A stretch of 64,000 bases of DNA from Sulfurimonas sp. (GCF_029027585.1 NZ_CP093397.1:1167405-1231404), one strand, 5' to 3'; positions 36,860 through 52,405 are shown, counted from the first letter of the stretch. The notes: generated by a model from the letters alone, not told the origin. Translations and numbers: made by a program.

Positions 36860-36879
36860 AGGCTAAAACTAGCCTTTAA
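36856..36879. terminator. Bidirectional terminator between msrBA and nnrS
   Basis: TTAAAGGCT (36856-36864) pairs perfectly with AGCCTTTAA (36871-36879) around a six-base loop. The stem contains the msrBA stop and abuts the nnrS stop, so it serves convergent transcripts. Confidence 0.65.
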
Positions 36880-38116
36880 TCCCATCTGCTCTTTCATTTA
36901 CCAAGAATTTAGAAAACTGTACCATATAGATAACAAAAGGTAAGCTCCATATTAGCGAAGAGTATAGATATAATTCGCTTGTGTACTCATCAAAAAATGG
37001 AATCAAACCTCTCATAAATGTTGCTAAAATAATTAAAAAGACCATTAGATGCGTATATATATTTGATGTTAGCTTTCGTCCTGTGTGTACCCAAGAGATT
37101 ATTAACATAACTACTATATAGGAAAGTCCGATTCCTCCACTTGTTATAAAGTGTCTAAAGTGATTAATACCATTGATATCAGGGTTCAATAAATCCCAAG
37201 CCATAAGTACATAACCAATACTAAACAAAACATATATAGATGCTAGATATATAACATAGGGCTGATTAAGTATAAATTCATCTTTAAGTTTATACTCACT
37301 TGTTATGCCTAATATCGCGGTTCCCGCTCCAAAACCAAGCCAAGCTAAAGCTGAGTTTTGAGGGTACAAAAATTCAACAGTTGTAAAAATAATAACCATA
37401 AAAATAGCTAAATTTGTTTTTGGAGGACGAGATATAAAAACATCATCAATGCCTTTGTCTTCCATAAGTTCATTGATAGCTTCCATATTTACTCGTCTCA
37501 GAGCTAACAAAACTATAACTACAATTGCCCCAAGTGCTACTTTTAAGATATCCAGTCCTGTCGTTTGCACAAAACCAGCCTGAGATGCAAAAAACCATAC
37601 TTCTATAATAAACAAAGCAACTGCCGTATAACCGATAGATGCATGTCTTTGAAGTTTATCTAGAACTGCATCTTTAGCAAACCAAATAATCCAACCAAGC
37701 ATCGCAAGGTTTAAAAATGCTGTTAGATAGATGCCCGTAATATCTATAAGCCAAAAACTAACGCGTCCTGCTAACCAAAGCATAACAACATACTTTAGTC
37801 GTTTTCCAACTAATGGAACAAGTCCAGGGAAAAGTTCAGGAAGTCCTGTTGCAAGAAATGCCAAAACACCTGCTGTTATAAGTCCATATAACATCTCATA
37901 AACATGCCAAGTTAAAACATCTTGCATAAAAGGAATACTTAAAGTTCCACTCCAAACAAGCCCCCAAAGAACCATACTAATAACTATGTATGGAGCTAAA
38001 AGTAAAAATATTGGTCTAAATCCATACGCTAAATATGGGGGAACATTTTTTTCATCAGGATAGTAAAGATAATGGTTTGTAGCTCGTAATTTTTCTTCTT
38101 GTTGTTTTTCACTCAT
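36869..38116 (-). CDS. nnrS: NnrS family haem-copper membrane protein
   Basis: A 415-residue protein with about twelve membrane helices and NnrS segments: YGFRPIFLLLAPYIV, TWHVYEMLYGLITAGVLAFL, and HFITSGGIGLSYIVVMLIISWVHTGRKL. NnrS proteins bind haem and copper and ease nitric-oxide stress. It shares one base with the ABC ATPase gene, so here it belongs to a transporter operon with a Fur-like box upstream. Confidence 0.9.
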   Translation of the reverse strand: MSEKQQEEKLRATNHYLYYPDEKNVPPYLAYGFRPIFLLLAPYIVISMVLWGLVWSGTLSIPFMQDVLTWHVYEMLYGLITAGVLAFLATGLPELFPGLVPLVGKRLKYVVMLWLAGRVSFWLIDITGIYLTAFLNLAMLGWIIWFAKDAVLDKLQRHASIGYTAVALFIIEVWFFASQAGFVQTTGLDILKVALGAIVVIVLLALRRVNMEAINELMEDKGIDDVFISRPPKTNLAIFMVIIFTTVEFLYPQNSALAWLGFGAGTAILGITSEYKLKDEFILNQPYVIYLASIYVLFSIGYVLMAWDLLNPDINGINHFRHFITSGGIGLSYIVVMLIISWVHTGRKLTSNIYTHLMVFLIILATFMRGLIPFFDEYTSELYLYSSLIWSLPFVIYMVQFSKFLVNERADGIKG

Positions 38117-38853
38117 TACTTTAACTCCAATTCAAATGTATCTATGATCTCTTCATCTTGCAATATTTTAGCACTCTCATTATAAACATATTTATCATCT
38201 CTTTTCTTTTGAGCAAGTGCATATGAAAACTTTTTAACAATATGTCCTGGGTCGGCTTTTAAAAGGAGTATTTCATCGCTAAGTCTAATCGCTTCCATCA
38301 AATCGTGTGTTATAAAAAGTATGCTTATCTCTTTTTTTTCAATCATTTCTATAAGTATGGCTTGAAGTTCTTTTTTTAGCCCTATATCTAAAGCAGAAAA
38401 AGGTTCATCAAGAAAAAGAAGAGATGGCTTTAGAACTAAGGCTCTTGCAAAACTAACGCGTTGACGCATTCCTCCACTTAAGTCTTTTGGAAATTTTTCA
38501 AAGTCACTCTCTTCAAGACCAAACTTTATAGCAATCTCTCTTGAGCTAGCTATTGCCTCTTTTTTATTTACACCTGCACCTAACAAACCTAAAGAGATGT
38601 TATCTATAACATTTTTCCAAGGGAGAAGTCTTGCATCTTGAAAAGCAAAAGCACTACTTTTAAATGTGTTAATCACACTTCCTTCTTCTACATCTAACAA
38701 GTTTGCACAAAGATGCAAAAGTGTAGTTTTTCCACCGCCACTAGGTCCAACGATAGATAAGACTTCACCTTTATGTAGAGTAAAATTAATATCTCTTAAT
38801 ATCTCTGTAAAACCAAAATGATGATTTAACTTTTTTACCTCTAACTTCTCCAT
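38116..38853 (-). CDS. ABC transporter ATP-binding protein
   Basis: A 245-residue ATPase of the nitrate/sulfonate/taurine (SsuB/TauB) group. Walker A is GPSGGGKTTLLH, the signature is LSGGMRQRVSFARAL and Walker B is LLFLDEPFSALD, followed by the switch His in LFITHDLMEA. It overlaps the permease gene by 13 bases. Confidence 0.92.
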   Translation of the reverse strand: MEKLEVKKLNHHFGFTEILRDINFTLHKGEVLSIVGPSGGGKTTLLHLCANLLDVEEGSVINTFKSSAFAFQDARLLPWKNVIDNISLGLLGAGVNKKEAIASSREIAIKFGLEESDFEKFPKDLSGGMRQRVSFARALVLKPSLLFLDEPFSALDIGLKKELQAILIEMIEKKEISILFITHDLMEAIRLSDEILLLKADPGHIVKKFSYALAQKKRDDKYVYNESAKILQDEEIIDTFELELK

Positions 38854-39623
38854 AGTTCAACCTCTCTTTTGATTGGCTCTAGCACTATGTACTCTATAAA
38901 CATAAGTGAACCTATCATAATGACAACAAGAGCAAGCGCGGTTGGAGTGTCTAACTGACTTCTTGCAACTGCAAGTGTTGCGCCGATGCCATCACTTGTA
39001 GCTAAAAGTTCAGCCATTACAACTATCTTCCAAGCCATACCTAGCGCACTTACCCAAGCAGGAAAAACATAAGAAAATATATGAGGAAAATAAACATCTA
39101 AAAACTTCATGTGCCAAGGTAGCTTAAAACTATCAGCCATCTCCTTTAAGTCGCCATCAAGTGTTCGTGTCCCCTGAAGTGCACCAACAAAGATTATGGG
39201 AAAAGAGGCAACGATAACAGTAAAGATAACAGTCTCATCTCCCATACCAAACCAAATCATCGCTAAAACTATCCATGCGATAGGAGGCATTCCAACCAAA
39301 ATAGTAACAATAGGACGACTCATCATAGATGCTGTTACAAAGAAACCTGCAATAAGTCCAAGAGTAGAACCAAGAAGTAAAGAGATACCAAAACCAACAG
39401 AAGCACGATACAAGGTTATATTTATCTGCTCTAAGATTTCTTTATCGCCAAGCATTATATAAAGTGTTCTAAAGGTTTCTTCTGGAGATGGAAGAACCAA
39501 ATCTCCATAAATTTGATTTCCCATATCCCAAACAGCTATGAAAAGAAAGATAGATGCTATTGACCCCCAACCACTCCACAAGTAAGCTGGAAAATCTTTA
39601 AGTATTTTTAGAGCAAATTTCAT
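38841..39623 (-). CDS. ABC transporter permease
   Basis: A 260-residue permease with six or so membrane helices. The coupling loop reads GALQGTRTLDGDLKEMADSF and the next segment WKIVVMAELLATSDGIGATLAVARSQLD, as in TauC/SsuC-type permeases. It is adjacent to the binding-protein gene (no gap). Confidence 0.9.
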   Translation of the reverse strand: MKFALKILKDFPAYLWSGWGSIASIFLFIAVWDMGNQIYGDLVLPSPEETFRTLYIMLGDKEILEQINITLYRASVGFGISLLLGSTLGLIAGFFVTASMMSRPIVTILVGMPPIAWIVLAMIWFGMGDETVIFTVIVASFPIIFVGALQGTRTLDGDLKEMADSFKLPWHMKFLDVYFPHIFSYVFPAWVSALGMAWKIVVMAELLATSDGIGATLAVARSQLDTPTALALVVIMIGSLMFIEYIVLEPIKREVELWRS

Positions 39624-40610
39624 CTAAGGAGCTTTGTAATAAAAACTATCTTGAGGAAGTTTGCCACCAATACTCTTCGGGTCCTCTTCTTTTAAAATAT
39701 TGAAAAAGAATTCCATTTTTTCTTTAGAATCTCGAGCTGATATACTTTTCATATTTAAATGTGAAATAGAATCAGCTACACCATCTTCGCTTAGCATTTT
39801 TATCTCTTTTGCTACTAAAACACCTGCTTGCTTAGGGTTAGACATATACCACTCAAGTGATTTATCATACTCTTGCATAAATCTAGAAATAACATGAGCA
39901 TCTTTCATTCTACCAAGTACAGCCATTCCAGCCTGAGGAACATTGTTGTCTGTATTAAAGACTTTTGCCCACTCATCTTGCAAGTTTACACTTCTATATA
40001 AATCAGGAGCGACTATACTAATAGGGAATGATTTTGTTTTACGAAGAGCCACTGAAATCGCAGGTTCAGCGAGAAGAGAGTGGTCTATTCTTCTCATTAT
40101 TAACATCTGCATAGCATCTATAGGACTAGCTACATAGACTAACTCAAAATCTTTTTTAGGGTCTAGACCTTGTTTTTTTAGAAGTTGTTTAAAGACGATG
40201 TCTGGCATATCTGCACGAAAAGGAATCGCAATCTTTTTACCTTTAAAATCTTTTAAAGTTTTCAGATTTTTATCTCGACTTATCATGCCAAGAATTCCCC
40301 AGACAGAAACATTTAAAAGTTTTACATCTACACCCTTATTGTTTAAAATCGCTGCTGTATTTGTAGGAATTGCTACAAAATCAACATCCCCTTTTATAAC
40401 GATTGCTCTAAGTTCATCAGGGTTTTTCCATAATCGAAACTCAACTTTTTTTGCAACATCTTTTAATGCACCTCTCTCAATCATATGTAAGATAGGATGA
40501 GATACAGATGCAAAAGGTCCTGCAATAACAATCTTTTCTAATTTCTCATTAGCTTGAAGCAAACTAATTGTTAGCGTTAGTAGTAAAAAAACATTTATAA
40601 AGTTTTTCAT
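39624..40610 (-). CDS. NMT1-type ABC substrate-binding protein
   Basis: A 328-residue periplasmic protein with a signal peptide (residues 1-20). The fold follows the NMT1/SsuA group: IVIAGPFASVSHPILHMIERG, VDFVAIPTNTAAIL, DFKGKKIAIPFRADMPD and MRRIDHSLLAEPAISVAL. Usual ligands are sulfonates, nitrate or pyrimidines, but the Fur-type box and haem-use neighbours suggest an iron-related ligand. It is the first gene of the operon with the permease, ATPase and NnrS genes. Confidence 0.85.
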   Translation of the reverse strand: MKNFINVFLLLTLTISLLQANEKLEKIVIAGPFASVSHPILHMIERGALKDVAKKVEFRLWKNPDELRAIVIKGDVDFVAIPTNTAAILNNKGVDVKLLNVSVWGILGMISRDKNLKTLKDFKGKKIAIPFRADMPDIVFKQLLKKQGLDPKKDFELVYVASPIDAMQMLIMRRIDHSLLAEPAISVALRKTKSFPISIVAPDLYRSVNLQDEWAKVFNTDNNVPQAGMAVLGRMKDAHVISRFMQEYDKSLEWYMSNPKQAGVLVAKEIKMLSEDGVADSISHLNMKSISARDSKEKMEFFFNILKEEDPKSIGGKLPQDSFYYKAP

Positions 40611-40648
40611 TTTATTTCCTCAAATATTAATTATTGCATCATATCAGT

Positions 40649-40667
40649 AATGATATTAATTATCATT
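40649..40667 (-). promoter_or_regulatory. Fur-type box before the NMT1-ABC-nnrS operon
   Basis: AATGATA and TATCATT form a perfect inverted repeat around five bases, 39 bases before the binding-protein ATG. It closely matches the Fur consensus. Confidence 0.65.
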
Positions 40668-40696
40668 GACTTTAATCAACATTTGAGTTTTTTTCT

Positions 40697-42631
40697 CTAA
40701 AATGAGTAGTTTAATCTAGCATATACATATCGTCCTCTAATATAATACTTATTTTGTCCCTCACCAATATGTTTTACATCACTTAAGTTTTCAGCTCCTG
40801 CTCTAAGTGTTAAATCTTCTAGAAACTCTTTAGAAAATTGCAAACCTAAAGTAGCATAGTCATCTATAGTTGCACCATCAGATGCTTTTTGACTTCCTAC
40901 ATAGTTAACTCTAAAATCACTACCAATCTCCCATGGAAGGTCAATTGAAAGCTTTAAGTTAGCTGTGTGTGCAGGTCGATTATGCAATTCCTTTTTTGTA
41001 TCTTTATTTTCAGTGTCAAGGAATGTATAGTTTAAATTAAAATCAAGTGTATCAAAGATTTTATTTTGAGTAAATTCCAATTCAACACCATCTATTCTAG
41101 CTTTACCTACATTTGAGTAAAGATACTCTCTGTAAGTCATTGGTCCAACTATTGTATCTCCTGTATGAAGATTATCTATGAGATCTGTTAGTTCAGTATG
41201 AAAATAAGTTGCTACAAATGTTATCTGATCTTTTTCATAATCATATCCTATCTCAAATGTATCAGATTTTTCAGGTTTTAGATTGTCATTACCATGAAAC
41301 CTATGAAAAGTTTTAGGCATTCCATTAAATGGAGGTCCTGCTGGATAAAATTCTACAGGAATTGCAACACCGTACTCACTTGAGTTCTGCGTAACCGTTG
41401 GGGCACTAAAACCATGACCATATCCAGCCTTAAGTCTGCTATTATCACTCAACTTATATACAAGGTTTGCCTTAGGGGAAAACTCTCCACCAAACCTCTC
41501 ATGCTTGTCATATCTAGCACCTATGGTAAGGATTGTACTACTTCCTATTTCAATTTCATCTTGCAAATATACAGAAGCATAGTTTATTGAATCTTCAAAC
41601 CCTTTACTTGTGTCATCTGCCGCATCATCATATTTTTTTCTATACTTTTCTTTTCTATACTCCCCGCCAAATACTATGAAATTATTATCAAACGAAGCAA
41701 TTTTTAATTCTGCATTAAGTGTATCATCACCCATTTTATGAGTATATTCAAACTGATCGGTATGAGAATCTGAAGTATTTTTGTAATATTTTACATTTAA
41801 ACTAATATCGCTAAAGTCTTTTTGATAACCTATCGAATAGTGAGTTTTATCAATGTTATATAACTCTTTATACTCATTAGTCTCTCTTATTTCATTTCCT
41901 AAAATTGCAAATGCTGTTATTTGCTGAGTAGCATCTATATCAAACCAAGCTTTTAACATCAAGTTTTTAATCTTTTTACCCTCTACTTCTGTAGTTTTAT
42001 CTACATCTTCAGGTTTTGTGGTTTTAGAATTTGCATACCCAATTATTGAAAAGCTGTCTGTTATTTTACCGCCTCCTGAAACTGAAAAATCTATATTTTC
42101 CCCTCCATCTCTTGAGCTATCTCCTCCTTCTAAGGTTATATCTCCCTGAATTTTTTCTACTGGTTTTTTAGTTATTATGTTAATAACTCCACCAATTGCA
42201 CTTGAACCATAAAGTGCACTCATTGGTCCACGAATCACTTCTATCTTTGAAATAGCATTAATAGGTATCCAGTTGTACTGAAAATCACTATGACCAATCT
42301 GTGCGTCACTTCCAGAAATTCTCTCTCCATCCACCAAAATAAGTGTATCTTTAGAGTCGGTACCACGAATACTGATATTTTGTCTACCGTTAATAGAGGA
42401 GTCATTCATTCCCATATTTAAACCAACAACACCTTCTAAAATTTCTTGTATTGATGACGCCCCTGTTTTTTTTATGTCTTCTGCTGTAATAACAGAAAAA
42501 CTCCCTGCTGTATCTAGTGCTGTTCTTTGTGTTTTTGCTGTTACAATAACATCTCTTAAATCATCAGCTGCATTTATAGAATTTATTAATATACTACTTA
42601 CTAACAAACTTAAATATATTTTATTTTTCAT
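40697..42631 (-). CDS. TonB-dependent outer-membrane receptor (HmuR-like)
   Basis: A 644-residue receptor with a signal peptide. There is a TonB box-like DVIVTA (about 28-33), a plug domain (SSIQEILEGVVGLN, IRGTDSKDTLILVDGERI, IEVIRGPMSALYGSSAIGGVINIITKKP) and a barrel with FSAPTVTQNSSEYG and NDNLKPEKSDTFEIGY, ending RYVYARLNYSF. The latter two match the FRAP and NPNL regions of haem receptors only in part. It follows the tonB-exbB-exbD genes and has its own Fur box. Substrate could be haem or another tetrapyrrole. Confidence 0.88.
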   Translation of the reverse strand: MKNKIYLSLLVSSILINSINAADDLRDVIVTAKTQRTALDTAGSFSVITAEDIKKTGASSIQEILEGVVGLNMGMNDSSINGRQNISIRGTDSKDTLILVDGERISGSDAQIGHSDFQYNWIPINAISKIEVIRGPMSALYGSSAIGGVINIITKKPVEKIQGDITLEGGDSSRDGGENIDFSVSGGGKITDSFSIIGYANSKTTKPEDVDKTTEVEGKKIKNLMLKAWFDIDATQQITAFAILGNEIRETNEYKELYNIDKTHYSIGYQKDFSDISLNVKYYKNTSDSHTDQFEYTHKMGDDTLNAELKIASFDNNFIVFGGEYRKEKYRKKYDDAADDTSKGFEDSINYASVYLQDEIEIGSSTILTIGARYDKHERFGGEFSPKANLVYKLSDNSRLKAGYGHGFSAPTVTQNSSEYGVAIPVEFYPAGPPFNGMPKTFHRFHGNDNLKPEKSDTFEIGYDYEKDQITFVATYFHTELTDLIDNLHTGDTIVGPMTYREYLYSNVGKARIDGVELEFTQNKIFDTLDFNLNYTFLDTENKDTKKELHNRPAHTANLKLSIDLPWEIGSDFRVNYVGSQKASDGATIDDYATLGLQFSKEFLEDLTLRAGAENLSDVKHIGEGQNKYYIRGRYVYARLNYSF

Positions 42632-42646
42632 TACTTTCCTTTACAT

Positions 42647-42669
42647 ATGATAATAATAAGCATTATCAT
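42647..42669 (-). promoter_or_regulatory. Fur box of the TonB receptor gene
   Basis: ATGATAAT and ATTATCAT form an eight-base perfect inverted repeat around seven bases, 16 bases before the receptor start. It is the best Fur match in the window. Confidence 0.8.
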
Positions 42670-42750: not shown

Positions 42751-43137
42751 CTACTCCTCTTGTTTTGTTATCAATGCCAATTTATTTAAAGAGTGTGTTT
42801 TTAACAAGTCTAAAATTCGTACTACTCGAGAATATGGAACATCTTTATCAATGTAAAACATTATCATCTTTCCATCTTTTGCTAAAGGCAGTACCTTGAA
42901 CATTATCTCTTCATAACTTACTTTATCTCCATTAACTGCAAGTGAGTCTTTTGATAATTCAATACTAAGAGTTTTTTTCTCTTGTACTTCTTTACTTGCT
43001 CCCGCGTTAGGAAGTTCAAGCATAAGAGCGAGTTCCTCTTTTTTAAAAACAGAACTCACTAAGAAAAAAATCAATAAAATAAATATAATATCAACCATAG
43101 GAGTCATATCTAACCCTAAGGGCTCACGACGCTTCAT
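42751..43137 (-). CDS. exbD: ExbD
   Basis: A 128-residue protein with a short charged N-terminus, one helix carrying the essential Asp (TPMVDIIFILLIFFL, Asp16) and a periplasmic domain. It forms with ExbB the proton channel that drives TonB. It overlaps exbB by 14 bases. The receptor gene follows after 119 bases with its own Fur box. Confidence 0.92.
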   Translation of the reverse strand: MKRREPLGLDMTPMVDIIFILLIFFLVSSVFKKEELALMLELPNAGASKEVQEKKTLSIELSKDSLAVNGDKVSYEEIMFKVLPLAKDGKMIMFYIDKDVPYSRVVRILDLLKTHSLNKLALITKQEE

Positions 43138-43591
43138 AAATTCCTGCTATTTTTTGTATTAATATCTGCTCTGTTTTATCTAATTCACCGATAAAATAAT
43201 TGTAAAATATATAAGCTGGAATCGCTACAACTAATCCACCAACCGTTGTGATTAGTGCAGTTGAAATACCTTTTGCAAACTGTGTTGGGTCGCCAAGTCC
43301 ATGAATCATAATCCCTTCAAATGCCATAAATATCCCAAGAACCGTGCCAAGAAGCCCTAAAAGTGGTGATATCGTTGATACAATCTTAAGAGTTGTAAGC
43401 CCCATCTCAAGTGGTGCAATTAAAGCGGCTGCTCTTAATTCTGCTCTATCTGATGGTAAATCAATATTTCTTGTACGAAATTTAAAAAGCGTAATAGAAG
43501 CTATTTTCCATATTATTATTATCGTTCCTACTATTGCCATAGCGAATAATATATACATAATTACTCCACCTTTATCTAAATAGTATTGCAT
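43124..43591 (-). CDS. exbB: ExbB
   Basis: A 155-residue protein of the MotA/TolQ/ExbB family with three helices and the loop PLLGLLGTVLGIFMAFEGI, then ISTALITTVGGLVVAIPAYI. It lies three bases after tonB and overlaps exbD. With ExbD it converts proton flow to motion of TonB. Confidence 0.93.
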   Translation of the reverse strand: MQYYLDKGGVIMYILFAMAIVGTIIIIWKIASITLFKFRTRNIDLPSDRAELRAAALIAPLEMGLTTLKIVSTISPLLGLLGTVLGIFMAFEGIMIHGLGDPTQFAKGISTALITTVGGLVVAIPAYIFYNYFIGELDKTEQILIQKIAGIYEAS

Positions 43592-43594
43592 TTT

Positions 43595-44290
43595 TTAATC
43601 CTTTAGTGCATATATTATTGGCACATTTAATTCCCATTTATCTAAATTTTGGGGTAGTGGCTTAAAACGATTCAGTTCTACTAAAAGCATTTTTGCCGCC
43701 TTATTTAATCTATTATATGGGCATGGGGAGTCTATCTTTACTGACTTAATATGTCCATATTTTGTAATAATAAAGGAAATTTTAACAACTCCTTGTTGAT
43801 TCATTCTTCTTGCATGTCGTGGATATTTTAAGTGTTGTTTTATCCATGCTGCTAACTCTGAGAGATAAATATCTTTTTGTTCTTCAAGAAGATTTTTTCT
43901 AGCTTGTTGAGTTTTTCTAAACTCTTCTTCTCTTGCAAGTTTTTCTTTTTGAAGTTGCTCTAATATCTCTTGTTCTAACTTTTCTTTTTGTGCTAGTTTT
44001 TCTTTTATTTGAGCATCCTCATCTACAATCTGAGGTTTTTTTACAATTTTTTTTTCTACCTTCTTTACTACTCTTTTTCTAGGTTTCTTTATTGGTTTTT
44101 TAGGTAGCTTTTTTTCTGTCTTTATTCTTGTATTAACTATAGTCACATAATGTATGGACTCTGTTTTTGAAGCACTTAATTTTAAAGTATCAGTCTTTTT
44201 AATATTTTGAGCCAATAAAATTGATGCCATTAAAAGCGTACTAACAATGGCACCAATTAAAAAACTAAAATCTTCACTTCTTTTTATCAT
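43595..44290 (-). CDS. tonB: TonB
   Basis: About 231 residues from ATG 44290, chosen because the helix starts there (MIKRSEDFSFLIGAIVSTLLMASILLAQ); the longer frame to 44374 would run into the chelatase gene. A Lys/Pro/Glu-rich linker (LPKKPIKKPRKRVVKKVEK) is followed by a helix rich in Glu, Lys and Gln and the C-terminal domain (KYPRHARRMNQQGVVKISFIITKYG). It transmits energy from ExbBD to the outer-membrane receptor. Confidence 0.9.
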   Translation of the reverse strand: MIKRSEDFSFLIGAIVSTLLMASILLAQNIKKTDTLKLSASKTESIHYVTIVNTRIKTEKKLPKKPIKKPRKRVVKKVEKKIVKKPQIVDEDAQIKEKLAQKEKLEQEILEQLQKEKLAREEEFRKTQQARKNLLEEQKDIYLSELAAWIKQHLKYPRHARRMNQQGVVKISFIITKYGHIKSVKIDSPCPYNRLNKAAKMLLVELNRFKPLPQNLDKWELNVPIIYALKD

Positions 44291-44295
44291 AACTT

Positions 44296-47200
44296 TTACT
44301 TTAAACTTTGCTTCTTGTTGCTTCGCATCTCTAAAAGAACACCAAGCAAGACTAAAAATAAAATAAACATCCACATTGCAACAGAATCATAGTTAACCTT
44401 TTCTTTTATATCTTTTTTTACTTCTTCAAGTTTTTGACCTTTAACTTTAGCTTTTACTTTTACTACTGGCTTGCTTTGTGCTTTTAGGGCATTTGCAACA
44501 GGAGTGGCAATAGGTATGCTTAAACCATAACCAGCCGCTTTTTGGGCCTTGATAAAGTCTTTTAGTTTATTATTTAGAGTTTTATGATTGTGTTTCTTAG
44601 ATATCTCTTCTAAAGTTTCCACAAGCTTTTTAATTGTTTTAGCATCTGTTTGAAAGTACCCCTTTCTAACAGCTTCTAGCATCACCTCCGCCATTTGTGC
44701 ACGAGCAGTAGGATTTGTTTTTTCAAACCACTCATCCATATTCATATCATACTTATCATCATAGTAAATCTCTACAAATTCTTGCCATTGGTCTGAACGA
44801 ACACCATCGGGATAAACCACCTGCCATCCCCAAAAATTATTTACTACATCTAAAACACGAGTAGCACCACTATAACCGCTATCTTGCATCTCTTTTATCC
44901 ACTTAGGATTATAGTACCTTGAACGCAACTCATTAGAAATAAATTCACTAACATCTTGCATCTTTGCATTATTTGGATCTCTTAGATTCGAGATTAGCAT
45001 CTGTGGACTTTTACCATCTAAATGACGAATAGCAAGTGCGATTGAGCCAAAATATCCATAAGGGTCATCAGATGTCATCATCCCATACAGGTTTGATGTA
45101 CGGCTAAACATTACAGCATCTGTGCCTTTTAAGTTTTGTGCAAACATATCTATATCTTTTACTCTTGTTCCCCATCTAGATTCATCAGAACCATAAATAT
45201 AACCTGAAGTTCGAATAAAATTCTCAGCAATCCTCGTCTCTTTATCCCATGTCTCTGAAACGGACACAGTGCCTGAAACACCATTCCCATATTTACCTTG
45301 TGCTGCAGAGAACATACGAATGGTAGATAGATACTGAGCTTCTTTTTTATCATATCCCTTATCTAAGAGCATTTTTTTCAAAGATAGAGCATGTAGGCGA
45401 ACATAATTATGCTCTTCTTTGAGAGCTGCAATCTTCTCAACTCCTTCATTGATTACTCTCATAACATTAGGAAAAGTATCACGATAAAGACCTGTTGCTT
45501 GTATAACCACATCTATGCGAGGTCTTTTTAACTCACTATAAGAGATAACTTCAACACCACTTATTTTCCCACGACCCATTTTCATCCCAGCATAAAACAT
45601 CTCTTTCATCTTAGTAGGCATTAAAAAATCAAACATTTTAATTCTCTGGACTGTAACAAATGAAGCAATCCATTTGGCAAAATCTTCGCCAAACATCCCT
45701 GCTAACATTCCTTTTGCCATACTTTGAACCATCTCATCACTTATGCCACCTTCACTCCAAAGAGGTCTAATACCCATTGCATAAAGTATTTGGGATTCTA
45801 GTACACCAAAATGGCGCATAGTTTCTAGTGACCATAAATTAAAAGTTATCTTTTGAGGGTATTTCCCATGTTTTGCATAGTAGTTTTCAATATAATCTTT
45901 CATAATTTTAGAGCCTGTCTCATAGGCGGCCTCTGTTGGGATACGCTGGGGGTCAAAGCTATACATATTCATACCAGTAGGGATAGATTCAGGGCTTCTT
46001 ACAGGATCACCACCTACGCTAGTTTCTATATATCCAGCATCTAAACCTTTTAATAAATTTTGCATCTCTTTATTGTTTACAAAATTATCTCTATAAATTC
46101 TTGCCGTTTGTATAAATGGTCTTAATCCACCATCGAGCGAATCCAGACTTTTGTTTTGTATAACATGCTTTTGTAGCATCTTATAAACTTTTGTTTTATT
46201 TAAATCTTTGTAGTTTATACCTGCTAGTCCATTTTCACCCTCAACAGTTTTTATAAAAGTATCTCCTAGCATTGACATGAGCGTTTGTACCATATGGTCA
46301 TCTTTTGGATATGAACCATATTTATGCATACCAAGAGGAGTTAAGGTTGAACTTAAACCATTTAGATAATCATACAAATCTGACACAAAAACATCTGTCT
46401 CATTTTCCATCATCTCTTTAGTATATTTCATATCTTTATGTAAGCTCATCTTTATAGTTAAAGCTATAAGTTGCTTTTTATTGTTTTGTTTTACAGCATC
46501 ACTACTCTGCTTATACTGGTTTATCAAATCCATAATATCACTTAACTCTTTGTAAGTTCCACTAACACCAAATGGCGGTGTTTGATGAGAAATCAATGTT
46601 GCTCTACCGCGTCTTTTTGCTTGGATGCCCTCTGCAAGATTATTTGTAATATATGGATATATATTTGGTAGTTCTCCAACACTAAGAAGAGGTGAATCGT
46701 AGATGCTAAGACCTCTCTCTTTTCCGTAAGTCCACTCATAAGTTCCGTGTGTACCTAGATGCACAATCGCATCATTTTGCTGTCTTACATATAGATATAC
46801 TGCAAGGTAATGATGGGGTACTGGCGAGGCAGTATCATGATAGATTCTTCCCTCATAAATTTTTCTTCCCATTCTGTCTTGCCCAATATTGGAGCGACTA
46901 GGTTGTGGGAGTAAAGTAACCTTTCCTTTTTTCAGTCTTGGGATTATGAAGTATTTTTTTCCATCTTTGGTATGAAGAAATTTACTTTTTCTTGGATGTC
47001 CCCATTTTTTATTTATCTGATTTCGAGTCTCTTGTGGAAGTGTTAAATACCACTCATAATAGGTATCATAAGATAATAAATCAGCATATTTTTCATTATA
47101 AACACTATCTTTATAATAATATGCCATAGACTTAGGAAGCGTCTTGATAAAGTAATCACTACTCTCACTCTGAGTCTGATACCCTGCTTCTTTCATACTA

Positions 47201-48393
47201 GATAAAATACTAGACAAAGATTCTGGAAACTGCATATATGAAGCCCCAAAGTTATTTACACCTGGAGGATAGTTATAATAAAATATAGCTATATTTTTCT
47301 CTTTGTTTTGCTTTTGTTTTAGCTTAGAGTTATTTATAGCTATTTTCATAAACATATCTAACTGATAAGATATCGGTATTGTTTTTTTCGTAATTGGGTC
47401 TAAGGCACCCACTATTAACTGATCAGTATAACCGATATGTTCGGGAATAGTATAAGTCATCGGTATCCAGCTCATAGATATACCCTGCTTATCTTTTTCC
47501 CAAACTTCTTGTGAACCCTGACGATAAATAACACCATGCATAACTTTAAGACCTATTCTTGCATAGTCTTTTCTAAGTTGTTCTTGATCCATTATCATAA
47601 CCTGAAAAGAGATTATCAAATCTATAAGTTGTTTTCCATCTTTTGTAAAAAAACGCTCTCCTGCAAAATCTTCTTCACCTACTTTTGTGTAAAAAACGAT
47701 AGGAGTTATACCAGCACTTGTGAGTTGTTTAATTGCTGTATCTACAATTACAGTATCGTCAGAAGATATATTTTCTTTATGTATAACAATCCCAACCATT
47801 GGACTATTTTTTTCATCATCACTTAAAGTTTTCCAGTATTCATCTAAATTTTCAAAAGTACCCTTTCCTTTATTTGGATGATATATTCCCGTATTACTCA
47901 TTTTGTGAACAGGTTGAGGATTCGTTTGTGTGGAAAAATATGCTCTTGCTAAAAAAGCAGCTCCTTGAGCATAGTTATATTTACCAGCTTGAGAGAAATA
48001 ATCTAATATAGTAGAAGCAAACTCTTCATCCATATTTCCAAACTTTTTATACTCTAACTTTAAAGCGATATATGGTGTTTTAGTATCTTCTAAAATATCC
48101 TCATACCTGCGTAAAAGTGAGGCAACACCGTGTTTACCATCTAGTGCATCTATGATTACTAATCTTCTGTCTTTAAAAGTTTCTCTCGCTTTATCTTCAT
48201 CTAGATTAAATATAATCTCTGAAGATATACTATATGGAGCAAGTTGCTCTTTTAAAAGTTCCGCTTTTCTCTCTTGGCGATTTTTACCCATATTTGTTGA
48301 TAAGATAAGAATATCACTTTTGATATTCACCCCTTCATCCGCTTGAACAAATGGCATAAATAACAAAAGTGCCAATAATAAACAGCGTATCAT
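44296..48393 (-). CDS. CobN-like periplasmic chelatase (HmuS type)
   Basis: A 1365-residue CobN/BchH-family protein. Residues 1-18 form a signal peptide (CLLLALLLFMPFVQA) and about 1338-1356 form a membrane helix (MWMFILFLVLLGVLLEM), so the large domain should be periplasmic and tethered. Core motifs are VHLGTHGTYEWTYGKERG, LPNIYPYITNNLAEGIQAKRRG and SHQTPPFGVSGTYKEL. Soluble CobN works with the CobS/CobT ATPases on cobalt insertion; neither is here. In Bacteroidetes the HmuS homologue removes iron from haem. I infer a dechelatase role. It overlaps the DUF2149 gene by four bases. Confidence 0.88.
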   Translation of the reverse strand: MIRCLLLALLLFMPFVQADEGVNIKSDILILSTNMGKNRQERKAELLKEQLAPYSISSEIIFNLDEDKARETFKDRRLVIIDALDGKHGVASLLRRYEDILEDTKTPYIALKLEYKKFGNMDEEFASTILDYFSQAGKYNYAQGAAFLARAYFSTQTNPQPVHKMSNTGIYHPNKGKGTFENLDEYWKTLSDDEKNSPMVGIVIHKENISSDDTVIVDTAIKQLTSAGITPIVFYTKVGEEDFAGERFFTKDGKQLIDLIISFQVMIMDQEQLRKDYARIGLKVMHGVIYRQGSQEVWEKDKQGISMSWIPMTYTIPEHIGYTDQLIVGALDPITKKTIPISYQLDMFMKIAINNSKLKQKQNKEKNIAIFYYNYPPGVNNFGASYMQFPESLSSILSSMKEAGYQTQSESSDYFIKTLPKSMAYYYKDSVYNEKYADLLSYDTYYEWYLTLPQETRNQINKKWGHPRKSKFLHTKDGKKYFIIPRLKKGKVTLLPQPSRSNIGQDRMGRKIYEGRIYHDTASPVPHHYLAVYLYVRQQNDAIVHLGTHGTYEWTYGKERGLSIYDSPLLSVGELPNIYPYITNNLAEGIQAKRRGRATLISHQTPPFGVSGTYKELSDIMDLINQYKQSSDAVKQNNKKQLIALTIKMSLHKDMKYTKEMMENETDVFVSDLYDYLNGLSSTLTPLGMHKYGSYPKDDHMVQTLMSMLGDTFIKTVEGENGLAGINYKDLNKTKVYKMLQKHVIQNKSLDSLDGGLRPFIQTARIYRDNFVNNKEMQNLLKGLDAGYIETSVGGDPVRSPESIPTGMNMYSFDPQRIPTEAAYETGSKIMKDYIENYYAKHGKYPQKITFNLWSLETMRHFGVLESQILYAMGIRPLWSEGGISDEMVQSMAKGMLAGMFGEDFAKWIASFVTVQRIKMFDFLMPTKMKEMFYAGMKMGRGKISGVEVISYSELKRPRIDVVIQATGLYRDTFPNVMRVINEGVEKIAALKEEHNYVRLHALSLKKMLLDKGYDKKEAQYLSTIRMFSAAQGKYGNGVSGTVSVSETWDKETRIAENFIRTSGYIYGSDESRWGTRVKDIDMFAQNLKGTDAVMFSRTSNLYGMMTSDDPYGYFGSIALAIRHLDGKSPQMLISNLRDPNNAKMQDVSEFISNELRSRYYNPKWIKEMQDSGYSGATRVLDVVNNFWGWQVVYPDGVRSDQWQEFVEIYYDDKYDMNMDEWFEKTNPTARAQMAEVMLEAVRKGYFQTDAKTIKKLVETLEEISKKHNHKTLNNKLKDFIKAQKAAGYGLSIPIATPVANALKAQSKPVVKVKAKVKGQKLEEVKKDIKEKVNYDSVAMWMFILFLVLLGVLLEMRSNKKQSLK

Positions 48394-48719
48394 ATTTTCA
48401 TATCCTTCTCTGGAACATATACAAATGAGCCATCTTCCATCTTGTATGAAATACCAGCTTTCTTTCCATTTCCTTCACCAATATTTCCTGTTGACTTAAA
48501 AGTTTTTATCTCTTTGCCTTTTTTAACCATTATTTCCATATTTTTCTTTCCAGCATTTTTTATAACCGTCACATCCTCGCTACTAAAAGGATTCAGTGGA
48601 TTTTGAGATATGATAATCAACAAAGCAGCAATCACAACTAAAAATATATCTATCAAGTTTATGACAGAATTCATCGGATTGTTATCGTCATCATCATCAT
48701 TTAGTAATCTAACAGCCAT
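48390..48719 (-). CDS. DUF2149 protein, ExbD-like (HmuV type)
   Basis: A 109-residue protein. A charged N-terminus (DDDDDNN) leads to one helix with an Asp near its start (NPMNSVINLIDIFLVVIAALL, Asp24), in the same place as the essential Asp of ExbD. The periplasmic end has the DUF2149 pattern GEGNGKKAGISYKMEDGSFVYVP. With the upstream MotA/ExbB-type gene, from which it starts one base in, it could form a dedicated proton-driven motor. Confidence 0.82.
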   Translation of the reverse strand: MAVRLLNDDDDDNNPMNSVINLIDIFLVVIAALLIIISQNPLNPFSSEDVTVIKNAGKKNMEIMVKKGKEIKTFKSTGNIGEGNGKKAGISYKMEDGSFVYVPEKDMKI

Positions 48720-49207
48720 TAAGTTGCCTTTGCAACTTCGATGATATGTAATTCATCTGCGTACCATCTCTTTTTAATATTACCTATCCAGTAAGTAAGT
48801 GAAGCAGCAATAAGCCCTAGCGTTACTCCAGAAAAAGCTAAAATCAAACCATCACTCATACCTTGAATATTTCCATCTGTTAAAGCTTTAAGTGCAGGTC
48901 CAAGAGGGATAAGAGTTGCGATAAGACCCATCATTGGAGCAATTCTTGAAACATTACGAACATTCTCTAGTTTTTTAAATGCAAAAAGTTCTAACTTCTC
49001 CATACTTATCTGCTTGTCAGCGTTATAGTGTCGTAAAATAGGATATGCCCCATTTGTATTTAACTGCATAATATTCTTTCTACGAGATATACCCTCATAG
49101 ATAAATGAGCCTAAAGCTATAAACGAATAAACAAACATTAGTAGTATTAAAACTAGTGTTGGAGTTAAGAAGAGTTGTGAAACTGTGTACATGGTAGTAT
49201 CAATCAT
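48719..49207 (-). CDS. MotA/TolQ/ExbB-type proton channel (HmuU type)
   Basis: A 162-residue protein with three helices and the family loop IAPMMGLIATLIPLGPALKALTDG, GLILAFSGVTLGLIAASLTYWIG. It is the first gene of the chelatase-TonB operon, behind Fur-like boxes. It is distinct in sequence from the exbB further down, so the operon has two channel subunits, one for each single-helix partner. Confidence 0.88.
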   Translation of the reverse strand: MIDTTMYTVSQLFLTPTLVLILLMFVYSFIALGSFIYEGISRRKNIMQLNTNGAYPILRHYNADKQISMEKLELFAFKKLENVRNVSRIAPMMGLIATLIPLGPALKALTDGNIQGMSDGLILAFSGVTLGLIAASLTYWIGNIKKRWYADELHIIEVAKAT

Positions 49208-49233: not shown

Positions 49234-49251
49234 TAATAATAACTATTATTA
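49234..49251 (-). promoter_or_regulatory. Fur-like inverted repeat before the chelatase operon
   Basis: TAATAATA and TATTATTA form a perfect repeat around two bases, 27 bases before the first gene of the operon. Confidence 0.5.
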
Positions 49252-49293
49252 TCGATATAATAGCTATTAATTAATTAATTCAGTATTAAATTG

Positions 49294-49314
49294 ATAACGA
49301 TTATCGATTGTTAT
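49294..49314 (-). promoter_or_regulatory. Fur-like box overlapping the RND gene end
   Basis: ATAACGATTATCGATTGTTAT is a near palindrome with a Fur-type core. It overlaps the last codons of the RND gene and lies 87 bases upstream of the chelatase operon's first ATG. Confidence 0.55.
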
Positions 49315-52300
49315 ATTTATTTTTGAAACTATATAGAATAGGTAAGTAATATAGATTAATTATAGTTGCGTAGATAAGTCCAAACCCAATACTAACTGCT
49401 AAAGGTTGCATTAAAAGAGATTCTCCAGATGCAAAAAATATTAATGTACTTAAACCAACTATAGTAGTAATAGAAGTAAGAAGTATGGGTCTTACTCGCA
49501 AAGAAGCATTTTGAAGTAATTCACCTATATTTTCTGATTTTTTGATCATGCTCAGCATTATAAGTGTGTCGTTAATTACAATACCTATAAGTCCAACAAA
49601 TCCAAGTAAAGATGAAAAAGAGATATCCATACCCATAACTTTATGACCTATAAGCACTCCTAAAAGAGAGAGCGGAATAACACTCAGGGCGAAGAAAGAG
49701 AGTCCAAGTGAAGAGAATAACCATGTTAAAATAATTAAAATTCCAAATAAAGCGAATAATAAAGATACAAAAATATCTTTTTTTATTTGATTATTAGTTT
49801 TTTGCTCTCCTTTTATAAAAACTTCTACTCCACTGTTTTTAATCATTTTAATTGTTGGTTTGAGCTTCTTATAAAAGACTCTAGAAGAAATTTTGTCTTT
49901 ATCAAAACTGGCACTAAGTGTAAATATCTTTTGTAAATCATCTTTTTTTATTGTAGTAATATCTTTAGAAAAACTTACAATAGCTATATCTTTTAAACAT
50001 ACATTGTAGCTTTGATTTGGTACTTCTAAAGATAAGTTATAAAGTGAGTATAAATTATCATGGTTTGAGAAATCTATTCTAAGCTCTATAAGTTCAGCAT
50101 TTGTATCTACAATTTTTGAAAGTTTTTGCATCGAAATAAAATTTCTCACTTTTGAAATAATTATTTTTTGGGTAAATCCAAGACTATTTCCAAATGTATT
50201 TAATGTAATTTCTACTTTTGACTCATCATATTTCATATCATCTTTAATACTATGAACACCCTTTATCTTTTTTATAGCTTCTTGCAGACTCTCCAAGGAG
50301 TTTTTAATCATCTTATTATCTTTGTGTGAAAGAGATATCTCCACATCATTTTTTACAACACCTGTTTGAGGTATATTTATACTAAATTCTAAAAAATTCT
50401 CTTTCAGATTATGTTTTTGTATTAAAGATTCTATCTTGTGTTGAATCTCTTTTGCATATAGAGTTCTTGTTCTATTTGAGTTTTCTGGCTCTTTATATGG
50501 TGCAAATATTGGGTTTATAACTCTGTTAAAAAAATCTTCATGTTTTTTTTGTTTTAGATTGATTGTTAATGTAAAAAGATTATCACCTTTTTCATGCATG
50601 GAACGACCATCACTATTCATGCCTATTATCATAGAAATTGAAGCTACATTTTCTGAGTCCAACTCTTTGATTAAAATATTTTCCAATTCTTTTATTTCTT
50701 GAAGTGTATAGCTGATAGCACCATTTTTAACTTTGCCAATTAGATTTATAGTCATAGCATCAAACTCTGGGAATAGCTGAAACACACTTGACTTTGCCAA
50801 ATTATATGTTGTAAAAAGAGTAAAAAATATAATCACAAAACCCCATATATATCGTCTTTTTATGAAAAAAGATAGTGAGCTCACATAGAGTCCACTTAGC
50901 TTATTCCACATTCTATCCCTGATTCCATTTTTTTTGTCATTTAAGAACTTAAATGACAACTCCTTATAATGAAGCGGTAAAAATATAAAACTTTCAACAA
51001 ATGAGCTAATCACCAAAATAATTACAATTAGAGGGATTATTTTAATAAAAACACCTAGTCCACCAGAGAGCATCGTTAAAGGTAGAAAAGCTATGATGGT
51101 TGTAAGCATAGATGCGAAGAGAATTGGCATCATCTCATTGGTTCCGTCTATACAGGCTTGTTTAATATTTTTACCCATGTTCGAATGACGATGAATATTT
51201 TCACTCACAACAATTGCCTCATCAACCAGTATCCCCAGACTTAGTAAAACTCCTATCATAGATAAAGTATTTAAAGATCCTTCAAAAAAATCCAAACCTA
51301 TCAACCCAAAAGCAAAACTAACAGGAATTCCTAGGATAACAACAATAGCAATCTTTAAAGAGATAAAAAACCAAATGGAAAAAAATAGTAAGGTCAAGCC
51401 GATTATAATATTTGAGCCAATAGTATTAAGTCTTGTTTTTATCCAAAAAGAGCTGTCACTTAGAATTTTAAAATCAATATCTTGATAGTTGTTTTGATAT
51501 GTTGAGATGATTTTTGTGATTTTTTTAGAGAGTTCTATACTATCCCCAAGTTTTGCTTTTTTTATGTTAATTATTACACTCTCTTTAGCATTTGTACGAG
51601 TAATAACATCTCTATCTTCATAATCATACTTTATATCTGCAATATTTTTAACATATATCAGTTTATCATCTATTTTTATCTCAGACTCAAGAAGCGTATT
51701 TATATCTATATTATCATTTTTACTTTCAACATAATATTTCTGTTTTTTAGAACTAATAGAACCTATGGGATACAGGGAGTATAAACCCATAAGTGCGTCA
51801 TAGGCTTTCTCGTTTGATATACCATAAGCTATGAGTTTTTGCGGATTTAATGAAATGACAAGTAAAGAGTTATAATCTCCATCAAGAGTCACGCTATAGA
51901 GGTTTTTTAATTTTTTAATATCCTCGCTCAAATCTTTTGCAACTTCAATATACTCCATATTTATATTAGAAGATATAGATATATTGATAAGAGGAAAATA
52001 ACTTTCCAAGATATCAACAGTTGGAATATCCATATCTTTTGGCAAATCTTGTTTTAAATTTTCAATTGAATTTTTTATATTATTAACTATTTGTTGTTTT
52101 GAAGTTTTATTTTTTATCTCGGCATTTATATGAAAAGTACCATTTGTAATAATCGTTTGTATATCAGTTAAGTTTTGATTATTTTGTAGAATACTCTCGA
52201 TATCTTGAACAATTAGTTTATCTAGTATTGTGCTATTTGCGCCGTTATAGTGACCTTTTACACTTATCATATCCTGTGCACTAGGAGGAAACATCTCCTT

Positions 52301-52405
52301 AGGAATCTTGCTATAAGAAATAAAAGCAAGCAGAAGTAAAAATATAAAAAGTATATGGTTTAGCGATCTGTTTTCAAGACTCATGCTTATAAATTTTTTT
52401 ATCAT
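49301..52405 (-). CDS. RND (HAE1-type) efflux transporter
   Basis: A 1034-residue RND pump with a helix, a large periplasmic part, five or more helices and a second repeat of the same plan. The proton-relay region reads LSLGILVDEAIVVSENIHR, with Asp-Glu where AcrB has Asp-Asp. Further conserved parts are GIPVSFAFGLIGLDFF and GFVGLIGIVINDTLIM. No membrane-fusion or outer-membrane channel gene adjoins it. It is divergent from a TonB receptor across an AT-rich region with Fur-like sites, which suggests an iron-linked role such as siderophore export. Confidence 0.88.
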   Translation of the reverse strand: MIKKFISMSLENRSLNHILFIFLLLLAFISYSKIPKEMFPPSAQDMISVKGHYNGANSTILDKLIVQDIESILQNNQNLTDIQTIITNGTFHINAEIKNKTSKQQIVNNIKNSIENLKQDLPKDMDIPTVDILESYFPLINISISSNINMEYIEVAKDLSEDIKKLKNLYSVTLDGDYNSLLVISLNPQKLIAYGISNEKAYDALMGLYSLYPIGSISSKKQKYYVESKNDNIDINTLLESEIKIDDKLIYVKNIADIKYDYEDRDVITRTNAKESVIINIKKAKLGDSIELSKKITKIISTYQNNYQDIDFKILSDSSFWIKTRLNTIGSNIIIGLTLLFFSIWFFISLKIAIVVILGIPVSFAFGLIGLDFFEGSLNTLSMIGVLLSLGILVDEAIVVSENIHRHSNMGKNIKQACIDGTNEMMPILFASMLTTIIAFLPLTMLSGGLGVFIKIIPLIVIILVISSFVESFIFLPLHYKELSFKFLNDKKNGIRDRMWNKLSGLYVSSLSFFIKRRYIWGFVIIFFTLFTTYNLAKSSVFQLFPEFDAMTINLIGKVKNGAISYTLQEIKELENILIKELDSENVASISMIIGMNSDGRSMHEKGDNLFTLTINLKQKKHEDFFNRVINPIFAPYKEPENSNRTRTLYAKEIQHKIESLIQKHNLKENFLEFSINIPQTGVVKNDVEISLSHKDNKMIKNSLESLQEAIKKIKGVHSIKDDMKYDESKVEITLNTFGNSLGFTQKIIISKVRNFISMQKLSKIVDTNAELIELRIDFSNHDNLYSLYNLSLEVPNQSYNVCLKDIAIVSFSKDITTIKKDDLQKIFTLSASFDKDKISSRVFYKKLKPTIKMIKNSGVEVFIKGEQKTNNQIKKDIFVSLLFALFGILIILTWLFSSLGLSFFALSVIPLSLLGVLIGHKVMGMDISFSSLLGFVGLIGIVINDTLIMLSMIKKSENIGELLQNASLRVRPILLTSITTIVGLSTLIFFASGESLLMQPLAVSIGFGLIYATIINLYYLPILYSFKNKYNNR

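Follow-up and report, generated by a model that had tools for sequence, protein, structure and literature searches.

A putative ExbB/DUF2149 motor encoded with a membrane-tethered CobN-like chelatase in Sulfurimonas sp.

The locus described here raises the question of what an ExbB-type channel protein and a DUF2149 protein do beside a large CobN-like chelatase that is predicted to reside in the periplasm. The three genes (the trio) lie on the minus strand of a 64,000-nucleotide stretch of the Sulfurimonas sp. genome (GCF_029027585.1 NZ_CP093397.1:1167405-1231404; the window). They are an ExbB-type gene of the MotA/TolQ/ExbB family (ExbB2, HmuU-like; 48719–49207, 162 aa), a gene for an HmuV-like DUF2149 protein of ExbD-like layout (48390–48719, 109 aa), in which a membrane helix (residues 15–39) precedes a small predicted beta domain, and the gene for a CobN-like periplasmic chelatase or dechelatase (44296–48393, 1365 aa). 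Pfam assigned them to MotA_ExbB (E = 1.1e-7; 32 bits against a cut-off of 22.9), DUF2149 (3.1e-28), and CobN-Mg_chel (7.6e-285), respectively. The ExbB-type and DUF2149 genes overlap by 1 base and the DUF2149 and CobN-like genes by 4 bases, in agreement with the tight coupling noted in a preliminary description of this DNA. In the order of transcription, an RND-type (AcrB family) efflux gene (49301–52405) precedes the trio, which is followed by tonB (43595–44290, with a likely ATG start at 44290 in an ORF that runs from 44374 with GTG), canonical exbB (ExbB1; 43124–43591) and exbD (42751–43137), a gene for a TonB-dependent receptor resembling CirA and haem receptors (40697–42631; below the cut-off of all subfamily models), genes for the NMT1/SsuA-type binding protein, permease, and ATPase of an ABC transporter (38116–40610), and nnrS, all on the minus strand. 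The spacing is probably 5 bases between cobN and tonB and is 3 bases between tonB and exbB1, and exbB1 and exbD overlap by 14 bases.

Two of these neighbors recur beside the trio in other genomes. The RND efflux gene was found there in Campylobacterota and Cupriavidus (L014, L015, L018, L021, L022, L044, L047, L049, and L050), and our guess is that its product could export the emptied porphyrin ring. The NMT1/SsuA-type ABC transporter with NnrS (36869–40610 in the window, where Fur-like boxes precede it) recurs in six places, including L036, L045, L063, L011, and L138, across Campylobacterota, Beta- and Gammaproteobacteria; this transporter could import the ring once freed, or else a small molecule related to it.

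No CobS/ChlI-like ATPase gene was found beside the trio, and no CobT anywhere in the genome. One of the AAA genes of the genome was read by eye as MoxR-type (L147, adjoining a DUF58-like gene), and further AAA_5 matches are untyped. The earlier claim that no CobS/CobT ATPase is encoded nearby was thus upheld for the neighborhood, and for CobT it extends to the whole genome.

The predicted topology of the CobN-like protein is that of an enzyme tethered to the inner membrane. Its N-terminus, MIRCLLLALLLFMPFVQA-DE, looks like a signal peptide (residues 1–18, 48340–48393, minus strand, VQA/DE; judged by eye and hydrophobicity), and a hydrophobic helix (residues 1338–1354, 44332–44382, minus strand) is followed by a Lys/Arg-rich tail. 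Both elements had been noted before and were seen again here by hydrophobicity only; by the same measure, membrane anchoring with a periplasmic body, a feature of HmuS, is predicted for the window protein. Where complete, the DUF2149-linked CobN-like proteins had an N-terminal signal or anchor and a C-terminal helix, a clear C-terminal helix being present in 0 of 30 other CobN/BchH proteins, although this call was made from hydrophobicity only and the weakest linked value was 1.49 against 1.41 for the highest control.

The body of the protein is of the CobN/ChlH type, with HFG(T/A)HG present as HLGTHG. The superfamily active-site motif, as defined in PMC12583661, is HLGTHGTYEW (46732–46761, minus strand), in which His549 corresponds to His538 of HmuS, and the best PDB match was HmuS (9d26). 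A second HmuS motif, LSLDHxxEFMGG (His1209 and Glu1212), which is kept in three Bacteroidota proteins, is missing from the window protein, which has MTSDDPYGYFG instead; SNLYGMMTSDDPYGYFG (45046–45096, minus strand) occupies the position of SLDHxxEF, with Asp1110 for His1209 and Gly1113 for Glu1212. In a FastTree phylogeny of 115 sequences, the DUF2149-linked CobN-like proteins, including HmuS, formed one clade (support 0.987) that excluded canonical CobN, haloarchaeal CobN, and BchH, with HmuS as sister to the remainder; the window protein also scored below all NCBIfam CobN cut-offs and is not a canonical CobN. Because TSDDPYG replaces SLDHxxE, we place the window protein beside HmuS and not within it, and the parallel with HmuS drawn in the preliminary description does not amount to orthology by the published active-site motif. 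The CobN-like enzyme probably sits on the outer face of the inner membrane and pulls iron from haem-like rings.

Several known systems resemble parts of this locus. The hmu operon of Bacteroidota (HmuS/HmuU/HmuV) shares with it a periplasm-anchored CobN-like chelatase of the sister clade, an ExbB-type protein, DUF2149, an adjoining TonB-dependent receptor, and iron regulation, but the window lacks HmuY and HmuT, has its own TonB-ExbB-ExbD, carries TSDDPYG for SLDHxxE and an ExbB2 without the second channel threonine, and HmuU and HmuV have been published as energizers of HmuR. PA1922–PA1925 of Pseudomonas aeruginosa, likened here from its description in the literature, likewise combines a receptor, a CobN-like protein, an ExbB/ExbD-annotated protein, and DUF2149 in one operon, but is regulated by zinc (Zur) and not by iron (PMC9431628, PMC4542158). 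BtuS1/BtuS2 of Bacteroides fragilis differ in that their authors saw undiminished protoporphyrin IX (PPIX) formation in the double mutant and discussed no motor. CobNST and ChlHID/BchHID have the same large-subunit fold and HxG(T/K)HG motif, but are cytosolic, untethered, driven by AAA+ ATPases, and metal-inserting.

The trio is far from a chance arrangement. DUF2149 is rare in Campylobacterota, scoring over the cut-off in 5 of 298 genomes, and in each of the five, exbB, DUF2149, and cobN adjoin in that order. A scan of genome contigs with a CobN-like alignment gave 79 loci from Campylobacterota and Beta-, Gamma-, and Alphaproteobacteria; since these were chosen by similarity to the query, the presence of ExbB-type and DUF2149 genes in 72 of the 79, before or after cobN, holds within one subfamily. 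The remaining seven loci were cut by contig ends or rearranged, and DUF2149 was found elsewhere in all seven genomes. In an independent, evenly drawn sample of 249 Pseudomonadota genomes, a CobN-family gene was present in 72 and DUF2149 in 7, a count that overlooks at least one diverged DUF2149 (G390, a separate protein above the Pfam cut-off). All seven DUF2149-positive genomes also had CobN-family genes (hypergeometric p = 1.4e-4), within about 1.2 kb of DUF2149 in six. The co-occurrence check proposed earlier thus came out positive, and the 79 loci, the 249-genome sample, and the tree together support the earlier picture of a tethered periplasmic chelatase that stands alongside ExbB/DUF2149 and has no dedicated ATPase.

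Some loci depart from the common layout. In Catenovulum (L037, 7875–16442), two tandem CobN-like genes lie behind a single ExbB/DUF2149 pair. The ExbB-type gene adjoins a gene for a NicO/DsbD-like protein in Runella (L134, 7524–8150), and in the same place DUF2162 in Trichlorobacter (L135, 7552–8253) and HmuT in Bacteroides (L132, 7537–8250); the three are possibly interchangeable inner-membrane metal permeases, and their shared place would suggest a role for HmuT. At L154 (4411–8601), a CobN-like protein with a signal peptide, 68% identical to the L153 chelatase, has lost the linker, helix, ExbB, and DUF2149, while the reading frame is kept and receptor and B12-type ABC genes remain on either side. 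We considered this loss of the tether as a clean natural experiment and rejected it, because the 3' end of cobN, exbB, and duf2149 are contiguous and one deletion suffices, which makes L154 weak evidence either way. A chelatase body without the motor can evidently persist and may work unaided.

With regard to the substrate, the window points to iron. Fur-box-like sites were found on the plus strand upstream of the receptor gene (42649–42667, 17/19), upstream of exbB2 (49235–49311; 15/19 at 49235, 14 and 13/19 at 49287 and 49293), and in front of the ABC transporter genes, where overlapping sites (40646–40670) each match at 15/19. At a threshold of at least 13/19, the Fur consensus matched 19 sites spread over five intergenic regions of the window island, against 1.7 expected from composition-matched sequence, and sites of at least 15/19 occurred near trio genes in 17 of the 79 loci, against 2 of 79 in the highest-scoring of ten shuffles. 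A consensus search for Zur boxes around the trio found none in excess of shuffles, and an Rfam search of the window gave no riboswitch at the gathering thresholds and hence no hint of B12 control. FeoB is present in the genome. Among relatives, a ChaN haem-binding family protein lies beside the trio in 10 beta-proteobacterial loci and an HmuY-domain protein in 5 gamma-proteobacterial loci (in each case one member Pfam-checked, the others assigned by similarity), and flavodoxin (3 Campylobacterota loci), bacterioferritin, and imelysin also occur there (one member per cluster compared with Pfam); neither HmuY nor HmuT is found in the window neighborhood. In the window genome, haem or an iron ring resembling it is the likely substrate, as judged from the Fur boxes and from the ChaN and HmuY neighbors in relatives, with the second active-site histidine of HmuS missing.

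That missing residue, together with Glu1212, leaves room for the CobN-like protein to act on a metal chelate other than haem, either another tetrapyrrole or a metallophore. The contexts of relatives are varied: the Runella trio lies inside a hyp hydrogenase (nickel) cluster, the Azospirillum trio two genes' breadth from nikR, and the Trichlorobacter trio and L153/L154 in cobalamin clusters, and PA1922–1925 belong to the Zur regulon according to the literature (PMC4542158, PMC9431628). The Fur-like boxes in the window and the ChaN, HmuY-domain, and flavodoxin neighbors argue for haem instead. We regard another chelate as possible but less likely than not.

Features that would suit a proton-driven motor were seen in both small proteins. 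As in ExbD/TolR, the DUF2149 protein has a single N-terminal membrane helix with Asp at the essential position: Asp24 (codon 48648–48650) lies inside the predicted helix 15–39. It is Asp in all 73 close DUF2149 homologs and throughout a 17-sequence set that includes Bacteroidota, Runella, Trichlorobacter, and Azospirillum, except for Glu in Runella; a lack of conservation here would have refuted the earlier proposal, which thus withstands this check. Homology of DUF2149 to ExbD is only hinted at by sequence comparison: hhalign gave weak matches (probability 6–15%, E 0.002–0.006) with Asp aligned on Asp, and one ExbD/TolR-like protein is a marginal match (9e-4) to the Pfam DUF2149 model. A weak DUF2149 match in G039 was rejected as a trio, since the protein is ExbD/TolR-like and its gene lies in a tol-like cluster. 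In the structure model of DUF2149 (overall pLDDT 74, pTM 0.34), the membrane helix 15–39 has a pLDDT of about 90 and is accompanied by a five-strand beta region of moderate confidence; Foldseek and VIA-align comparisons of this model with the PDB gave no match that surpassed E 0.86 or Z 3.8, most of them pairing helix with helix; an ExbD-type fold may still apply. A profile match to 8qag was set aside as a designed coil protein. A diverged DUF2149 protein at L153 (3629–3925) has kept the Asp in a membrane helix, NLADIMLV, that looks close to the ExbD helix, and its periplasmic part is different.

In ExbB2, T98, equivalent to the first channel threonine of ExbB (T148), is kept without exception. 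At the second position (ExbB T181), V128 is found throughout the window clade and Thr in Bacteroides finegoldii HmuU and Runella, so that the window ExbB2 does not have both channel threonines. Strong TolQ/ExbB matches in the PDB from one profile (A6) were discounted because that profile included true ExbB proteins, and a pure ExbB2 profile gave no TolQ/ExbB matches in the PDB. With V128 at the second channel position, proton conduction by ExbB2/DUF2149 is plausible and not established. The pair resembles the 5:2 motors TonB-ExbB-ExbD, Tol-Pal, and MotAB in combining an ExbB-family channel subunit with a single-helix partner that has a membrane Asp, and differs from them in that the periplasmic part of the partner is DUF2149, not recognizably ExbD/TolR, and in that the proposed client is an enzyme.

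A candidate contact between motor and enzyme was found in the linker between the chelatase body and its membrane helix. This linker is rich in Pro, Ala, and Lys and otherwise unconserved in sequence, except for a motif, VKGQKLEEV in the window protein (residues 1317–1325, 44419–44445, minus strand), which we term the tether box. VxGQKLEKV was found in 75 of 84 linkers by a strict pattern and in 81 by a loose one, where shuffled linkers gave 0.7 and 7, respectively. The pattern was drawn up with the sequences in view, which flatters the exact counts. The difference between motif and flanks is independent of that: among aligned cases Leu is conserved at 94%, Val at 74%, and Glu at 69%, with Gly invariant by construction of the pattern, whereas flanking positions do not exceed 36%. 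The motif is kept in Runella (VKGYKMQEE) and Trichlorobacter (VEGFEMKET); two of three HmuS linkers have a looser form (KGGMVLKK and DKGTVMKRE), and none was seen by eye in the third (L136). A position of this kind is what one would expect of a site where a motor docks. We infer that VxGQKLEKV may bind DUF2149, and it could also bind another partner.

Which client the motor serves can be approached from the surrounding genes. We consider that ExbB2/DUF2149 is a dedicated motor for the periplasmic chelatase, with a probability of roughly 0.58. The published assignment is different: the pair would serve to energize the TonB-dependent receptor, a role put forward for HmuU/HmuV and PA1924 (PMC10100974, PMC12583661, PMC4542158, PMC8456098), with the chelatase as a passive neighbor, and a receptor gene does lie near the trio in most of the 79 loci. 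A separate and complete TonB-ExbB-ExbD, however, is already encoded in the window operon and in the Trichlorobacter plasmid locus, and three kinds of receptor alternate around an unchanged trio among the 79 loci. The trio is also more coherent than its association with the receptor: in 59 loci, the tree-distance correlation of ExbB2 was 0.59 with CobN and 0.37 with the receptor (bootstrap difference 0.15–0.33), and that of DUF2149 was 0.50 and 0.32, respectively, a difference that is not significant (interval −0.01 to 0.40). Methanogenic archaea have no outer membrane. A survey of archaeal families linked DUF2149 to TolQ in these methanogens (PMC9425974), which again speaks against a receptor as the client, and M. 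acetivorans was matched by both families in our control searches, which scored presence, adjacency aside. Energizing of the receptor would also leave the conserved linker motif of the chelatase unexplained. The reading of HmuU/HmuV as energizers of HmuR thus fits the window locus poorly, and we regard the receptor as an unlikely client.

Still less probable is that the pair, with HmuT where present, belongs to a permease that moves haem or the released metal across the inner membrane. Such a role was proposed for HmuTUV of P. gingivalis (PMC13227078), and HmuT, DUF2162, or a NicO-like protein adjoins the pair in Bacteroidota, Trichlorobacter, and Runella, but no such permease gene was recognized in the window or among the recurrent neighbors of the 79 loci. 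Moreover, ExbB-family proteins are motors or channels and not solute permeases. The earlier suggestion that the ExbB/DUF2149 pair powers the chelatase is accordingly favored by indirect lines, namely the operon's own TonB/ExbBD, the swapping of receptors, the tree correlation, and the linker motif, and is weakened by V128 in ExbB2 and by the likelihood that dechelation chemistry needs no energy input.

This last point comes from HmuS. Purified HmuS without HmuU/HmuV converted haem to PPIX using NADH and in the absence of ATP, with only 1–2 turnovers, for which the authors named missing factors or product inhibition (PMC12583661). As HmuS strips haem without a motor, none is needed for breaking the metal–ring bond, and the proton-motive force that the earlier proposal assigns to the chelatase is unlikely to be needed for dechelation itself. 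The motor probably drives release or resetting rather than chemistry. The opposite direction, in which the tethered chelatase inserts metal into a ring in the periplasm, has in its favor that every characterized CobN/ChlH relative inserts metal and that the sequence at the DD motif is like canonical CobN, but is highly improbable given that the sister clade HmuS removes iron (PMC12583661), that the Fur boxes and metal-starvation control (Zur for PA1922–1925, literature) fit scavenging, and that the chelatase genes are receptor-linked.

Taken together, we propose that the three trio proteins would form an inner-membrane machine that strips metal from a periplasmic tetrapyrrole. The TonB-dependent receptor, powered by TonB-ExbB-ExbD of the same operon, would bring the metal–ring complex into the periplasm, where the membrane-tethered CobN-like protein would take the metal out and leave the ring. 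ExbB2/DUF2149 would act as a dedicated motor of the 5:2 type, in which protons crossing at Asp24 move the periplasmic domain of DUF2149, itself presumably docked on the VxGQKLEKV motif of the chelatase linker. By pulling or turning the chelatase, the motor may bring about its opening, the release of ring and metal, and its reset, thus substituting for the CobS/CobT or ChlI/ChlD ATPases of the cytosolic relatives, and Fe(II) would then enter via FeoB.

The protein families themselves were known beforehand, as was, since 2025, the stripping of iron from haem by HmuS; the linker motif and the reading of the pair as a motor for the chelatase are new in the literature open to search. If the motor drives release or resetting, this would be one answer both to the role of HmuU/HmuV/DUF2149 and to the stalling of HmuS at 1–2 turnovers, and metal chemistry in a compartment that lacks ATP would be powered by proton-motive force; the linker motif and Asp24 offer point mutations for a direct test. 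More tentatively, at rather less than an even chance, the locus may represent a general class of periplasmic machines that use protons to strip metals. In these, ExbB/DUF2149 motors would be dedicated to tethered CobN-like chelatases via the linker motif and, with various receptors, would liberate the iron, zinc, nickel, or cobalt of tetrapyrroles in bacteria and perhaps also in methanogenic archaea. No earlier 5:2-type motor would have had an enzyme for its client. Judging from the nickel, cobalt, and zinc contexts, extracytoplasmic ring stripping may be a wider nutrient strategy than haem use by gut Bacteroidota.
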